This document shows, in pieces, positions 4,778 to 18,175 of a stretch of 27,348 nucleotides of DNA. The notes below the pieces were generated by a model that saw only the letters and a program-made list of their open reading frames with translations, ran no database searches and was not told the origin of the DNA. Each line of letters begins with the position of its first letter. Position 1 is the stretch's first letter. The stretch covers positions 1-27,348 of IMG/VR virus record IMGVR_UViG_3300044620_001736, one strand, 5' to 3'. This DNA comes from a virus. The position numbers and the translations under genes are program-made.

Positions 4778-5140
4778 TTAACTTCTCGTTTTTAAATACT
4801 CTACTGCCTTATATAGGCCACTAAGATTATCCCCAAGATTTCCTAATCCAACATTACATGGATCGCAAATCCATCCACGAAATTTTCCAGTATCATGACA
4901 GTGATCAAGAACAATCTTTTTGTTGTGTGGGGGTGTCTTTCCACACAGATCACATACCTCTGGTTTTGGTGGTGCAGTTTTTTTCAACTGATACCGAAGT
5001 TTACTTTGCTCGCTAATACATGTTCTACACCTAGTATCATGCCTATCCTTATGTCCACGATGTCCAGGAAACTCAGACAGTTTTTTCGTTTCATTGCAAT
5101 AGACACATGATTTAGTTTTTAGTTCATCAATAATCTCCAT
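4778..5140 (-). CDS. Free-standing EndoVII-like homing endonuclease (F-CphI type)
   Basis: Likely cuts intronless psbA near the intron site and so spreads the neighbouring intron. The 120-residue protein has an N-terminal zinc pair (CVYC...CRTC) and a recombination endonuclease VII core: CDLCGK, then LDHCHDTGKFRGWICDPCN, then VGLGNLGDN. In S-PM2, F-CphI, a free-standing enzyme that uses the EndoVII motif, lies beside intron-containing psbA (established knowledge). I start at ATG 5140: the upstream ATGs near 5170-5173 lie inside the -10 box, and the longer open frame to 5305 runs into psbA and its terminator. No strong ribosome binding site is visible. Family call is confident; target is inferred from location. 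Confidence 0.85.
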   Translation of the reverse strand: MEIIDELKTKSCVYCNETKKLSEFPGHRGHKDRHDTRCRTCISEQSKLRYQLKKTAPPKPEVCDLCGKTPPHNKKIVLDHCHDTGKFRGWICDPCNVGLGNLGDNLSGLYKAVEYLKTRS

Positions 5141-5168
5141 AGGCACCGGAGGCTTTGGTTGCTCTAGC

Positions 5169-5197
5169 ATCATAGCATGGTTTTCAGGGCTTGTCAA
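5169..5197 (-). promoter_or_regulatory. Sigma70-like promoter for the F-CphI-like gene
   Basis: Minus-strand TTGACA (5192-5197) and TATGAT (5169-5174) with a 17-base spacer, directly after the psbA terminator. It gives the endonuclease transcription independent of psbA and excludes the ATG codons inside the -10 as starts from this promoter. Confidence 0.83.
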
Positions 5198-5252: not shown

Positions 5253-6153
5253 TCAACCGATGGCTGGTGCAGTGAGCGCAACAGGAGTGCTATCAGCAGC
5301 AGCAAGATCTAGAGGGAAGTTGTGTGCGTTCCTTTCGTGCATTACCTCCATCCCGAGACCACCACGATTCAGAATGTCTGCCCATGTATTAATTACATGA
5401 CCCTGACTATCTTGAATTGACTGGTTGAAGTTGAAGCCATTCAGGTTGAATGCCATCGTGCTAACTCCCAGAGCAGTGAACCAAATACCAACGACAGGCC
5501 AAGCAGCCAGAAAGAAATGTAGAGAGCGAGAGTTGTTGAAGGACGCATATTGGAAAATCAAACGACCAAAATAACCATGAGCAGCTACAATGTTGTAGGT
5601 TTCTTCTTCTTGTCCGAACTTGTAGCCGTAGTTCTGTGACTCATTTTCTGTCGTCTCACGTACAAGACTAGAGGTGACAAGAGATCCGTGCATAGCAGAG
5701 AAAAGAGAACCACCGAAGACACCAGCAACTCCCAGCATATGGAAAGGGTGCATAAGAATGTTGTGTTCCGCCTGGAAAACAAGCATGTAGTTGAAAGTTC
5801 CTGAAATCCCCAGAGGCATTGCATCAGAGAAGGATCCTTGACCGAAGGGATAGACCAGGAACACTGCACTAGCAGCAGCAACGGGTGCAGAGTAGGCAAC
5901 ACAAATCCAAGGACGCATACCCAGTCGGTAAGATAGTTCCCATTCACGACCCATGTAAGCATAGATACCAATTAGAAAATGGAAGACGACCAATTGAAAT
6001 GGTCCACCATTATATAGCCACTCATCGAGAGAAGCAGCTTCCCAGATGGGATAGAAGTGCAGACCGATAGCATTGCTAGAAGGAACAACAGCACCAGAGA
6101 TGATGTTGTTTCCATACATTAGAGAACCAGCAACTGGTTCACGAATCCCGTCG
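5253..6153 (-). CDS. psbA: psbA exon 2 (photosystem II D1 protein, residues 60-359)
   Basis: D1 is the photosystem II reaction-centre subunit. Phage copies keep photosynthesis running during infection. This exon supplies the last base of codon 60 and 299 further residues. It shows hallmark D1 segments: [72 protein letters not shown], and the C-terminal [21 protein letters not shown]. The spliced protein is 359 residues, normal for cyanobacterial D1. The exon begins at C 6153, directly after the intron's terminal G at 6154, restoring codon ATC and the native sequence VDIDGIREP. A terminator follows at 5207-5233. Confidence 0.98.
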
Positions 6154-6160
6154 CTTACAC

Positions 6161-6613
6161 CTAACAAACAACCATATCTTTTGACTTAGGTTGCTTCTGT
6201 TGACGAATTTGATTTGCTCGTTTTGCGTTTTCTACTCTTCCACCATTTTCTACCCACTCTTTCCAAGTTTGTAGATGAGAAATACATTCTTTTATCCTTT
6301 CTCCTCGCCTTACTCCCATATAAGGAAGTATTTGTTGTAGAATGGATAAAACCTTTTCTTTTTCTCCGATGTGAAGTGTATACACTTGTTTACCTTTTAC
6401 AGTTTTTCTTGATGGCAAGAAGTATGGTTTATCTAAAAGTTTACTCAACCTTTGGATAATATCTTCATCTACCATAGAAATTTTGATGAAAGGTGCTGGT
6501 GGAGTATTAGAAACTTCGTAACGGTCTTTAGAACGATTGTCTATTCCAAAGTATCCTTCACCTTCTAATAATCCAGCAATCCAAGCAACATCAGTTTCAT
6601 TTAGGTCTAACAT
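6161..6613 (-). CDS. Intron-encoded LAGLIDADG homing endonuclease
   Basis: A 150-residue protein with the LAGLIDADG-family helix [10 protein letters not shown] at residues 11-20 (catalytic acid at the E/D position near its end), followed by YFGIDN. I see one motif only, so the enzyme would act as a homodimer on a near-palindromic site. It probably cuts intronless psbA to drive homing; maturase activity is a possible alternative. The ORF lies entirely inside the intron. A T4-like late box, TATAAATA, sits 23 bases before its start, so expression should be late and independent of the psbA exon frame. Family call is confident; target is inferred. Confidence 0.9.
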
Positions 6614-6635
6614 TTTAATCTTGCGTCTTCTGTAC

Positions 6636-6643
6636 TATTTATA
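6636..6643 (-). promoter_or_regulatory. Late promoter box inside the intron
   Basis: TATAAATA on the minus strand, exactly the T4 late consensus, 23 bases upstream of the LAGLIDADG start codon. The T4 td intron endonuclease gene is also read from an internal late promoter (established knowledge). Confidence 0.7.
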
Positions 6644-6867
6644 CAGCATTAGCAAGAAAAGGTCAACAGTAGATGTGTGGACTATATCTTCACCCTTCAA
6701 AGAAGGGGCTGGGCACTTAAACCTGTTATTAAGGGGACTAAACCCCTCAGGTAGTCTCTGAACCTTCCTCAAGTGTACTTGAGGCTTGGCTGCTGATTGC
6801 CTTTCGGTTTCCAGCAATTCACCCAGTTTCGTCAATACTCTTACGAGTAAGGGACACCGATTAGTTA

Positions 6868-7046
6868 ATGTCTACGGGAGGAGCAGCAATGAAAGCAACA
6901 ATGAAACAAATAGTAGCAGCAAGAAGGGTAGGAATCATTAGAGTTCCGAACCAACCGACATAGAGACGGTTATCGGTAGAAGTTACCCACTCACAGAATT
7001 GTTCCCAAGTGTTACTTCCACGCTGTTGAGCGAGGGTAGCAGTCAT
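6868..7046 (-). CDS. psbA: psbA exon 1 (D1 residues 1-60)
   Basis: Encodes the D1 N-terminus [20 protein letters not shown], then [19 protein letters not shown] and the first membrane helix ([20 protein letters not shown]). It ends after the second base of codon 60 (GAC AT). Without splicing, translation would read one intron codon (Asn) and stop at once. The start at 7046 gives the standard D1 N-terminus. An early-type promoter and an overlapping late box lie 63-96 bases upstream, with a long hairpin in the leader. Confidence 0.97.
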
Positions 7047-7108: not shown

Positions 7109-7142
7109 TATTTATAGTAGCACAGGTTGCAAAATTTGTCAA
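7109..7142 (-). promoter_or_regulatory. psbA dual promoter: sigma70-like plus late box
   Basis: TTGACA (7137-7142) and TACTAT (7114-7119) with a 17-base spacer form an early-type promoter. TATAAATA (7109-7116) overlaps its -10 and matches the T4 late consensus. psbA could thus be transcribed both early and late. Confidence 0.82.
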
Positions 7143-10264: not shown

Positions 10265-10418
10265 CCCCCTTTGCAGGCTCGCCACCAGTTTTGAGTACGA
10301 GAAAACTGGAAACTCGGCAGAGTAAAAACTCCTCATCCGCACCAGTCGGCATATTTTATGTCCATCCGACGAGGACTAAATTGGGTCATACTTGACTCCA
10401 CCAGGGCAAGTTTTTAAG
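10265..10418 (-). other. Hairpin-rich spacer, no gene seen
   Basis: Serial stem-loops: GTCGG/CCGAC with a CATA-TTT-TATG core, GAGT/ACTC, and an 8-bp perfect stem CCAGTTTT/AAAACTGG. No ORF or tRNA is recognised. It may be untranslated RNA or insulating structure. Confidence 0.45.
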
Positions 10419-13104: not shown

Positions 13105-13178
13105 TCGGAATGATAGGATTTGAACCTACGGCATCTCGCTCCCAAAGCGAGTGCTCTACCAAACTGAGCTACATTCCG
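13105..13178 (-). tRNA. tRNA-Pro (UGG)
   Basis: 74 bases. Acceptor CGGAATG/CATTCCG perfect; anticodon stem CTCGC/GCGAG with loop TTTGGGA, anticodon TGG; T-loop TTCAAAT; discriminator A. CCA is not encoded. Confidence 0.95.
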
Positions 13179-13184
13179 AGGTGA

Positions 13185-13382
13185 ATGGTGGGATTCTGTC
13201 ATACCCACAACTGGAAGGTTACACTGACAACCGTATTCCAGAACCTAGATTCTTCTTGGTGAGAAGTTCTATACCTTTGATTTCTCAACGATACAGCGGG
13301 CACCACCCCTAATCTATTACATTATCCCGTGAGTAACCACAAAGATTATTCTGTCACATTCTTTGGAAACCCGTCGATTTCC
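13185..13382 (-). other. Hairpin-rich spacer between tRNA-Pro and tRNA-Ile
   Basis: About 200 bases with no ORF or tRNA seen. Stems include GTGGG/CCCAC near 13187-13207, CTGGAA/TTCCAG (13211-13216 with 13236-13241, inner GGTT/AACC), and GGAAA/TTTCC (13365-13369 with 13378-13382) next to tRNA-Ile. Confidence 0.45.
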
Positions 13383-13384
13383 AA

Positions 13385-16308: not shown

Positions 16309-17463
16309 TTATCCATCGTAGCTTCTTCTTACACCAGTTTCATCATCTTGTCTACGCTGAGTTCCCACAACTGCATTTAATCTAGATTTCAATTTAGCTG
16401 CCTTCTTTTGTTCAGATGTTTTACCATCCCATTCAGTTGGAGTGTTATCTTTCCAATCATTATGCCTGCCAATATTTGCTTCACGACTTCTTGGCAGTTT
16501 AGTTGTTTTTGGGGATTGTGGCCTTTCTGGATATGGTGCAGTAAATCCTTCAACAATTACATCAATCCAATCTTCACTCATGTTAACCATAATGTTTTCT
16601 GCTGATTCTACAGTATCAGCATATCCTTCTTCTAGAAGGTGATCTAAAACTACATCATATACATCTACATCTTCACCTAGTCTTGATGCAAGTCTACCAG
16701 CACCAGAAGCTACCTTTCTAGCAACTCTACCTAGGAAACCTTTACCAGATTTCTTTGCAGCAGAACCTGCTGCTTGCATCTTAGCTTGAGCAGCATCACT
16801 TGAAGATTTGGTTTTTGCTACTGCAGATTGACCTGCAGACTTAACTGCACCTTTAACCTTTTCTACTCCACGCTGGAGTTTATTGGCAGCTCTTGATGCA
16901 AGGTGGCCAACAACCTGTGAGCGAATGCCTCTACGAACAGAAGGATCCTTTGCAGCCTGCTTCATACCAATAGAAGTTCTATTGAGTGGCTTACCCTTCT
17001 TGCTTGATACTAGGCCATGCTTAGCAGCATAATCACCTGCAGCGGTGTCTACAGCCTTTCTAGCTCTAGCTACAGCCTTACCAGGAGCATCCTTGACTGC
17101 TTGAACTTGGCGCTGGCGGGCAGCAGATACAACAGCTTGCTTTCTAGCTTGTTGACGCATTGCAGTGCCCTGACCAGTTGTTACTGGTGCAGAACGCTTA
17201 TCAGTACTGAGTTTAGTATATCCACCACGACCTTTAGTTACAGTAGCTTCGGAGAAAATCTCATCTAGAGCTTCTTCAATATCTACTAATTCATATCCCT
17301 CTTCAATCATAGCTTCGATTGTTTCTTCAACAATCTCTTCAATCTCACCATCATAAAGATAATTAATATCCTCAAGAAGTTCTACTTCTTCAGATAATGT
17401 TTCTCTTACTTCATCGTTATAAACGGCAAAGTATGATTCGTAAAGTCTTTGAGTTTCTGTCAT
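16309..17463 (-). CDS. Lys/Ala-rich protein, probably structural, 384 aa
   Basis: Three parts. An acidic N-terminus, about residues 1-72 (EEIVEETIEAMIEEGYELVD), comes first. A long, strongly basic Ala/Lys/Arg-rich segment, about 75-265 (ARKQAVVSAARQRQ, AGSAAKKSGKG), resembles histone H1-like tails. An acidic module (VVLDHLLEEGYADTVESAEN) and a polar tail follow. I have no catalytic motif. It has a late box at 17495 and a strong terminator, so it is a single late unit; late timing and the similar layout of the 832-residue protein at 24834 suggest a virion or internal DNA-binding role, which is inferred. Confidence 0.75.
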   Translation of the reverse strand: MTETQRLYESYFAVYNDEVRETLSEEVELLEDINYLYDGEIEEIVEETIEAMIEEGYELVDIEEALDEIFSEATVTKGRGGYTKLSTDKRSAPVTTGQGTAMRQQARKQAVVSAARQRQVQAVKDAPGKAVARARKAVDTAAGDYAAKHGLVSSKKGKPLNRTSIGMKQAAKDPSVRRGIRSQVVGHLASRAANKLQRGVEKVKGAVKSAGQSAVAKTKSSSDAAQAKMQAAGSAAKKSGKGFLGRVARKVASGAGRLASRLGEDVDVYDVVLDHLLEEGYADTVESAENIMVNMSEDWIDVIVEGFTAPYPERPQSPKTTKLPRSREANIGRHNDWKDNTPTEWDGKTSEQKKAAKLKSRLNAVVGTQRRQDDETGVRRSYDG

Positions 17464-17494: not shown

Positions 17495-17502
17495 TATTTA
17501 TA
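17495..17502 (-). promoter_or_regulatory. Late promoter box for the 384-residue protein
   Basis: TATAAATA on the minus strand, 32 bases above the start codon. Confidence 0.65.
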
Positions 17503-17503
17503 A

Positions 17504-18124
17504 TTATCCCCTACTTATACTCCAACCATTTTTACGAGTTCCCTTTCTATTATATGCAATTGCTGCTTGCATAGTTGCATATGATATATTGTGGTCGATA
17601 CAAAATTTTTTAAGTTCTCCATCAACTGTATATTCAATTCCATCTGGAGATGTCAAAATAAACGTGCAGGAAGTGTGGTTTTTTCTTCCATTTTTGAATG
17701 TCAATTTTAATGAATTACTAATTTTGTCCAGTATTTCTTGAGTATGTTTATTTCCATAATTTGGATTATTTTTTCCAGCGACTTTTGCAGATATTTTATT
17801 TTTACTTTCTCTAGTATGTTGCCTTCCAGAAAAACCCTTTGTTTTTTGCCCTCCAGGTTTTCCTTCTCCACCAAGATTTTGATTCAATAAAACTCCACCA
17901 TCGCACTCTCTTTTCCAAAGTGCTATGTGTTTTATCTCAAGTTCTATTGCTTCTTCTTTGGTAAGACCAGATTTTACAATATATCTTCTTTCTCTTGGTG
18001 GCAATAAATCTGCACCATTACTTCTTAAATGTTTTGCATGTATTCTTCTAGGTTTTCCATACCCAACATAAAAGGGAGAACTAAAGTCCTCCCTTAAGTA
18101 ATAGTAAAGAATATAATTATTCAT
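17504..18124 (-). CDS. GIY-YIG homing endonuclease
   Basis: Free-standing, 206 residues. The N-terminus has a diverged GIY-YIG module (YILYYYLRE...PFYVGYGKPRR) with a conserved-type Glu in EEAIELEIKHI. The middle has NUMOD3-like DNA-binding repeats (GRQHTRESKNKISAKVAGKN, NPNYGNKHTQEILDKIS). The C-terminus has a NUMOD1-like helix-turn-helix (GELKKFCIDHNISYATMQAA). It sits between nrdB and the Lys/Ala-rich gene; phage homing endonucleases often target nearby genes such as nrd, but its site is unknown. I start at ATG 18124; the frame also allows GTG at 18145. It has a late box inside a 13-bp inverted repeat. Confidence 0.85.
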   Translation of the reverse strand: MNNYILYYYLREDFSSPFYVGYGKPRRIHAKHLRSNGADLLPPRERRYIVKSGLTKEEAIELEIKHIALWKRECDGGVLLNQNLGGEGKPGGQKTKGFSGRQHTRESKNKISAKVAGKNNPNYGNKHTQEILDKISNSLKLTFKNGRKNHTSCTFILTSPDGIEYTVDGELKKFCIDHNISYATMQAAIAYNRKGTRKNGWSISRG

Positions 18125-18128
18125 GGTA

Positions 18129-18175
18129 AAACTGAAGTTGATCACTATTATTTATATGATGCTCAACTTCAGTTT
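18129..18175. repeat. Perfect 13-bp inverted repeat flanking a late promoter
   Basis: AAACTGAAGTTGA (18129-18141) and TCAACTTCAGTTT (18163-18175) with a 21-base loop that holds TATAAATA (18149-18156, minus strand). It could cap the nrdB message or control the endonuclease promoter. Confidence 0.85.
18149..18156 (-). promoter_or_regulatory. Late promoter box for the GIY-YIG gene
   Basis: TATAAATA on the minus strand, 25 bases above the chosen start codon. Confidence 0.65.

Follow-up and report, generated by a model that had tools for sequence, protein, structure and literature searches.

What controls a homing endonuclease gene that lies inside a group I intron of a cyanophage psbA gene? The locus was found in a 27,348-nucleotide stretch of viral DNA, here called the window, which comes from a T4-like cyanophage and has its best annotated-phage matches in S-PM2 records (24% of bases 1-25000 covered, at 78% identity). 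The original prediction held that a late promoter within the intron drives the endonuclease, in parallel to I-TevI of phage T4. This interpretation is partly supported: judged from the sequence it appears right in outline, incomplete in its anatomy and unproven in its timing. We consider it likely that the endonuclease gene is an independent unit in the psbA intron, governed by a two-part switch that consists of a late promoter and a hairpin covering the start region. The features are listed in Table 1.

Table 1. Positions of the features discussed, numbered from the first base of the window
Feature	Position	Strand	Basis or remark
psbA promoter region	7109..7142	-	TTGACA-17-TACTAT overlapping TATAAATA
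psbA exon 1	6868..7046	-	read from sequence and ORF list
Group I intron in psbA	6154..6867	-	junctions GACAT/TAACTAA and GTGTAAG/CGACGGG; boundaries deduced from the frame, the U ahead of the 5' site and the last G
Proposed P9 5' strand, ACATCTA	6670..6676	-	weak statistics
TTGACC, -35-like hexamer	6661..6666	-	17 bp before TATAAA
RNA hairpin	6619..6657	-	fold, covariation, opening energy; box over part of inner 5' strand and loop
Hairpin outer stem	6657-6652 with 6624-6619	-	UCUUGC/GCAAGA
Hairpin inner stem	6646-6641 with 6635-6630	-	fold
T4-type late promoter box TATAAATA	6636..6643	-	predicted RNA start about 6630
LAGLIDADG homing endonuclease ORF	6161..6613	-	150 aa; Pfam LAGLIDADG_3, E 8.3e-5
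Proposed P9 3' strand, TAGGTGT	6157..6163	-	includes ORF stop codon TAG; weak statistics
psbA exon 2	5253..6153	-	read from sequence and ORF list
TATAAATA of second homing gene	18149..18156	-	sequence
Hairpin around second gene's box	18129..18175	-	perfect 13-bp stem AAACTGAAGTTGA/TCAACTTCAGTTT, z -4.67
Free-standing homing endonuclease ORF	17504..18124	-	NUMOD3 by Pfam; GIY-YIG-like start by eye

The psbA intron and its LAGLIDADG gene

A match to the group I intron core RF00028 (Rfam; 6877-6664, minus strand, 64.8 bits) splits psbA and is the sole group I intron detected within the window. Its sequence has the conserved core, the U before the 5' site and the G at the 3' end that are expected of such introns, and joining the exons at the inferred boundaries restores the psbA codon ATC. 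The ORF occupies the 3' part of the intron, with seven intron bases left after its stop codon. A P9 helix reaching across the ORF is only suggestive: the two strands lie in a consistent place with compensating sequences, and the mean helix is 6.5 compared with 5.7 for shuffled 3' segments (13 distinct pairs).

The LAGLIDADG motif of the predicted protein contains its acidic residue (E19, invariant in 12 sequences), and the best solved relative is I-AniI (E 0.005). Pfam assigns LAGLIDADG_3 and no GIY-YIG domain to the ORF. The control of this endonuclease appears to resemble that of I-TevI, but the enzyme itself is, by its domain assignment, no I-TevI relative. The ribosome-binding sequence is weak (AAGA before the ATG, by eye).

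IMG/VR was scanned twice, first with the protein and then with its alignment, which gave 25 loci and 13 further ones (L233-L245), the latter with 69-70% and 37-41% protein identity to the window endonuclease. The psbA junction is the same as in the window in 24 of 30 loci (the window and 29 relatives, L001-L025 and L233-L236), the other six being unmatched by the pattern. In L237-L245 the members inspected belong to another psbA intron, whose P7 3' strand follows the ORF, while in the window it precedes the ORF; they show GAGG or GGGG at the stem, a possible ribosome-binding sequence; the downstream exon VFQAEHN was detected by pattern in 8/9 of this group. No relative of the LAGLIDADG protein was encoded in any of the 123 stretches of bacterial and archaeal genomes that matched a pattern. 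No close relative was found among annotated phages, where 139 records matched, all below 60% identity.

Several other features of these loci were observed. Behind psbA in the window there is an EndoVII-type ORF (4778-5194, minus strand; Pfam) in which a DHCH...R...N motif can be made out by eye; most of this ORF is unlike S-PM2 F-CphI, and the MHER-NAHN site of psbA is uninterrupted. The RNA motifs wcaG and manA (Rfam; 10271-10378 and 13178-13383, minus strand) lie inside a tRNA-rich stretch. In two related psbA loci, L020 (2733-5298) and L009 (2731-5000), five and four group I intron matches were detected respectively, and several of the junctions look like psbA peptides by eye; a single phage psbA may therefore carry up to five introns.

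A late-type box ahead of the endonuclease

The box TATAAATA is real, and 22 nt separate it from the endonuclease ATG (6613) by the sequence, not the 23 bases first given. It was retained in 35/35 related loci that have a leader, 20-25 nt before the ATG and down to 37% protein identity; the count is based on 38 loci, three of which are cut off upstream, and as many of the 35 contigs are near-identical it represents fewer than 35 independent events. For another homing gene of the window, the box stands within 65 nt of the start in 79/81 loci of the family, a set made up of the window's copy and the 80 best of its 100 relatives. The box is absent in 17/17 remoter LAGLIDADG matches (L246-L262), in five of which no ATG was found and the leader was measured from the start of the match.

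A chance TATA-like octamer with no promoter function would be imaginable in such AT-rich DNA, where 1.9 copies are expected in the window. Seven copies are present, all seven on the gene strand (expected on both strands 1.92 ± 1.34; 0 shuffles reached 7), and this, together with the conservation of octamer and distance in the relatives and of the octamer in the second family, makes coincidence very improbable. CTAAATA was considered as an alternative late motif and rejected, as its 8 copies in the window are no excess over the 6.35 expected (28 shuffles had at least 8).

Read as a promoter, the box is of the T4 late type. A 16-mer containing this promoter, TGTATAAATARTACAG, is likewise found ahead of genes for head protease, scaffold and tail tube (families scanned by one representative each), which are late genes in T4. 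The box lies at promoter distance and is common to late structural genes. The published late motif of cyanophages is NATAAATA (PMC2984593). T4 late boxes, as deduced from PMC2988020, span -13 to -6 relative to the RNA start, so that RNA would be expected to begin near 6630, beyond the 5' arm of the hairpin described below.

The box lies within a predicted hairpin over the start region

The promoter of the original prediction stands, but a second element was overlooked, a covarying hairpin that holds the box over the start region. The box is at the hairpin tip, within the palindrome CTGTATAAATARTACAG, which is invariant at 15/17 columns in 14 distinct leaders and is flanked in the window by the outer stem. 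The 3' arm of the outer stem covers the bases ahead of the LAGLIDADG ATG and ends 5 nt before it. The palindrome was considered as an NtcA site and rejected by eye: the spacing here is 7, and the reported consensus is GTA-N8-TAC (PMC3037559).

The window hairpin folds with z -2.23, and 7/200 shuffles fold as well. In 14 distinct intron leaders 154/168 stem cells pair (91.7%; shuffled 87.0 ± 1.1, 0/500 as high) and the covariation score is 0.199 (shuffled 0.122 ± 0.017, 0/500; slid controls at most 0.057), the shuffles overstating this significance because the leaders are related. Double-change pairs (3, a number reached in 115/500 shuffles) and additional pair types (7; 178/500) are not unusually frequent. 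The stronger point appears to be that different stems occupy the same place: UCUUGC/GCAAGA in the window, CUCAAAU/AUUUGAG in L022 and UUCGCA/UGCGAA in L233, and in L238-L245 the box lies inside the unrelated stem TGTTTATCC/GGATAAACA. The hairpin probably hides the endonuclease start codon until the late-type start signal is used. To open the start region, the window's long RNA is predicted to need 9.0 kcal/mol and a short RNA started at the box 0.4.

One relative is free-standing. In L023 (1826-3480) the LAGLIDADG gene is directly behind an intronless psbA and is preceded by TTGTATAAATAATACAG, the same promoter 16-mer as in the intron copies, and the outer stem is absent. From this single locus, the promoter would seem to move along with its gene, and the stem would seem less important once the gene is outside an intron. 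L023 is a possible intermediate between a free-standing and an intron-borne homing gene.

A second homing gene with the same design

The window contains a second, free-standing homing gene with its own box and hairpin (Table 1). In 21 of 40 distinct leaders of its family, which were aligned, 98.1% of the stem cells pair, the covariation score is 0.181 (shuffled 0.117 ± 0.011) and four pairs show double changes, a number reached in 0/500 shuffles. Since psbA holds the one group I intron detected in the window, this hairpin is not a ribozyme structure. By its sequence the second homing gene repeats the box-in-hairpin design of the LAGLIDADG ORF. Another TATAAATA was found at 17495-17502 (minus strand), before a 384-aa ORF that begins at 17463, with TTGGAGT/ACTCCAA around the box by eye, a possible hairpin.

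These data also bear on the idea that the LAGLIDADG hairpin is merely a peripheral ribozyme stem, P9 or P9.1, with the box located there since loops are AT-rich. The hairpin does follow the P7 3' strand, the place of P9 in other psbA introns, but it begins about 22 nt behind that strand, compared with about 5 nt in the others (by eye), and the ORF may be spanned by another P9. A box in a hairpin precedes the non-intron gene (ATG at 18124) and HNH genes elsewhere, and the exact octamer was kept in every usable relative. As the sole explanation, ribozyme P9 was rejected on the late onset after P7 and on the non-intron hairpin, and a mere peripheral stem is improbable. The start-covering hairpin is preferred.

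Opening cost in homing and other genes

As a control, all 101 IMG/VR stretches with TGTATAAATARTACAG were collected by the promoter alone. With the window and the LAGLIDADG loci these gave 76 distinct leaders, 53 of which lead an ORF within 45 nt; the remaining 23 have no ORF of 50 aa starting within that distance, and some start further down. The median difference in opening cost between long and short RNA is 7.0 in 8 homing-gene families and 1.2 in 17 others with the same 16-mer (Mann-Whitney p 0.0015), where families were scanned by one representative each, three of the 17 (L040, L099, L103) were unscanned, L037 was placed with the homing genes on a weak match (MUG113, E 0.0055) and L023 was set apart from the medians. 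The excess over shuffled 5' arms also differs between homing and other families (p 0.0002). The promoter is therefore common to late genes, and the start-hiding hairpin is found mainly with homing genes.

For single leaders the effect is smaller. The window exceeds shuffled 5' arms by a modest margin (z 1.4, 11/100), and in most single LAGLIDADG leaders, the window included, the excess is only z 0.6 to 1.9 (L003 0.8, L001 0.6). The homing genes L079, L125, L037, L034 and L023 have little or no excess. Three non-homing leaders (L086, L039, L041) have a lengthened palindrome at the box too, though it lies some 40 nt away from the start.

Other homing-like leaders near psbA are divided: 5/11 have NATAAATA within 80 nt and 6/11 do not, these 11 having been picked by first residues and identified by eye, most of them unscanned. 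Another homing-like ORF (MITYLA..., by eye) is found in psbA introns of L017 (3785), L242 (1232) and L245 (1209); it begins right behind the P7 3' strand, and NATAAATA is absent within 80 nt. In L113, L109 and L063, HNH homing genes are located behind apparent tRNA 5' halves (by eye), and in L113 and L109 the 3' arm of the hairpin is complementary to the tRNA-like sequence.

Early or late use of the box

The original prediction that a late promoter drives the endonuclease holds in so far as relatives keep a box of the T4 late type at a suitable distance from the start. Late-only timing is unproven, because a -35-like TTGAC could also allow overlapping use by sigma-70. A TTGAC-like hexamer (at least 5/6) 16-18 bp before TATAAA was detected in 14/16 distinct LAGLIDADG leaders tested, compared with 0/21 non-homing and 0/15 other homing leaders; the test excluded L237-L245, and L238 has no TTGAC at that place by eye. 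T4-type late promoters have no conserved -35, and in this respect the LAGLIDADG leaders depart from them. In L015 TTGAC is unchanged while adjoining bases have changed.

The box may accordingly be a dual promoter, with TATAAA(TA) serving both as a sigma-70 -10 element (TTGAC, 17 bp) and as a gp55 late box. The endonuclease would then be made both early and late, and the hairpin would still block only translation of read-through RNA. The -10 element of sigma-70 promoters prefers a final T, which is missing in every LAGLIDADG leader, and the full octamer, unneeded by sigma-70, is kept wherever the leader is present. In the second gene's family a sigma-70 site of at least 10/12 overlaps the box in 24/39 leaders. 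In the window psbA itself carries both promoter types, an early-type TTGACA-17-TACTAT overlapping its own TATAAATA. Both kinds of motif have been reported upstream of psbA in S-PM2 (PMC5931967), and overlapping early and late promoters have been proposed for cyanophages (PMC2984593). Dual use is a serious contender, held at somewhat under even chances, and the late reading of the box remains the best on the sequence features found.

The homing site and a possible operator

The empty homing site TCCCGTAGACATCGACGGGA is symmetric at 16/20 positions and centred 2 nt from the insertion point; its best 18-mer symmetry has P 0.017 in random 32-mers. This fits a homodimeric endonuclease, as a suggestion only, and cleavage of the intronless allele is putative.

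In addition to the late promoter and hairpin, autorepression as in I-TevI was weighed, with the palindrome CTGTATAAATARTACAG as an operator bound by the endonuclease. The near-invariance of the palindrome and the symmetry of TCCCGTAGACATCGACGGGA, as expected for a homodimer, would agree with this. Over 20 nt, however, homing site and promoter region agree at 12/20 positions at best, a match that 29% of shuffled regions reach, and the same 16-mer stands ahead of many unrelated genes. As the match is not above chance, I-TevI-like autorepression is unsupported, and an operator function seems unlikely.

Comparison with known systems

In the td intron of T4, I-TevI (likewise I-TevII and I-TevIII) is encoded by an ORF in a group I intron with its own promoter just upstream. 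According to the published accounts (PMC2988022, PMC3014915), the I-TevI promoter is late, an RNA hairpin hides the start region only in RNA initiated upstream, the end of the ORF overlaps the intron structure, and a hairpin mutant that allows early I-TevI translation reduces td splicing. In the cyanophage locus a late-type promoter stands within the intron just ahead of the ORF, as far as sequence can tell, and a hairpin over the start region, indicated by prediction and covariation, depends on bases that precede the late start. The parallel is therefore closer than first claimed, since the box is also inside a covarying hairpin over the start region. The two systems differ in the endonuclease (GIY-YIG and LAGLIDADG) and in the host gene (td and psbA). 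Unlike I-TevI, the cyanophage ORF lies apparently in the P9 loop, has a weak ribosome-binding sequence and a -35-like element, and no operator resembling the homing site was found here. With a different endonuclease family and unrelated stems, convergence is plausible.

Hairpins that sequester the ribosome-binding site have also been described for the free-standing homing genes mobE (Aeromonas phage Aeh1) and segB (T4) (PMC2988022). Like the window gene that starts at 18124, these have a hairpin and a late promoter ahead of the gene; the endonucleases and phages are others, and in the cyanophage family, of which 80 relatives were examined, covariation was found in 21/40 distinct leaders.

In cyanophages, S-PM2 also has a group I intron in psbA, together with F-CphI (PMC6083498), but the insertion site is MHER/NAHN, the intron has no ORF and the endonuclease is free-standing. 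Endonucleases encoded within the psbA introns of S-CBWM1 and S-SRM01 are already in print (PMC8557907). In S-SRM01 (L027) TATAAATA is also found before the psbA-intron homing gene, but that ORF is HNH-like by eye (annotated as a putative site-specific endonuclease). There (183-198) the box is 5 nt before the ATG, and a late RNA would be almost leaderless. In the literature covered (titles and abstract openings, with few subscription journals), neither a late-promoter hairpin before a cyanophage homing gene nor a LAGLIDADG gene in a phage psbA intron was found.

The proposed switch and its meaning

In the proposed switch TATAAATA would be read by the phage late (gp55-type) RNA polymerase, and the promoter would sit at the tip of a hairpin whose 3' arm covers the bases before the start codon. 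Read-through RNA from psbA has both arms; it would fold and be poorly translated at the endonuclease start, and ribosomes would thereby be kept from crossing the unspliced intron in the direction of its 3' splice site. Transcripts initiated at the box would begin about 6 nt after it, lack the 5' arm and have an open start. Translating ribosomes could threaten psbA splicing as in T4, as the ORF stop lies in the possible P9 3' strand. From the two parts we infer late timing, a translation block and protection of splicing. The arrangement would be a new variant of the I-TevI-type switch, with the logic published for I-TevI.

T4-like cyanophages may use promoter-in-hairpin generally to lock the expression of homing genes, a generalisation offered tentatively and at rather less than even confidence. 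Unrelated endonucleases (LAGLIDADG, HNH, GIY-YIG-like and EndoVII type), in introns or free-standing, would have been set repeatedly behind a late or early/late promoter in a start-hiding hairpin. The architecture, not the stem sequence, would be selected, and promoter and gene could move together between the intron and the psbA flank (L023).

If this is true, T4's limit on intron endonucleases would be no coliphage curiosity and would represent a recurrent way of keeping ribosomes out of a splicing intron. It would recur in psbA, which is believed to sustain photosynthesis during infection and whose splicing in S-PM2 is reported to respond to light (PMC5931967), and would provide a testable link between the control of homing genes and psbA splicing. 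The box-in-hairpin signature could also be used to find homing genes in phage contigs.
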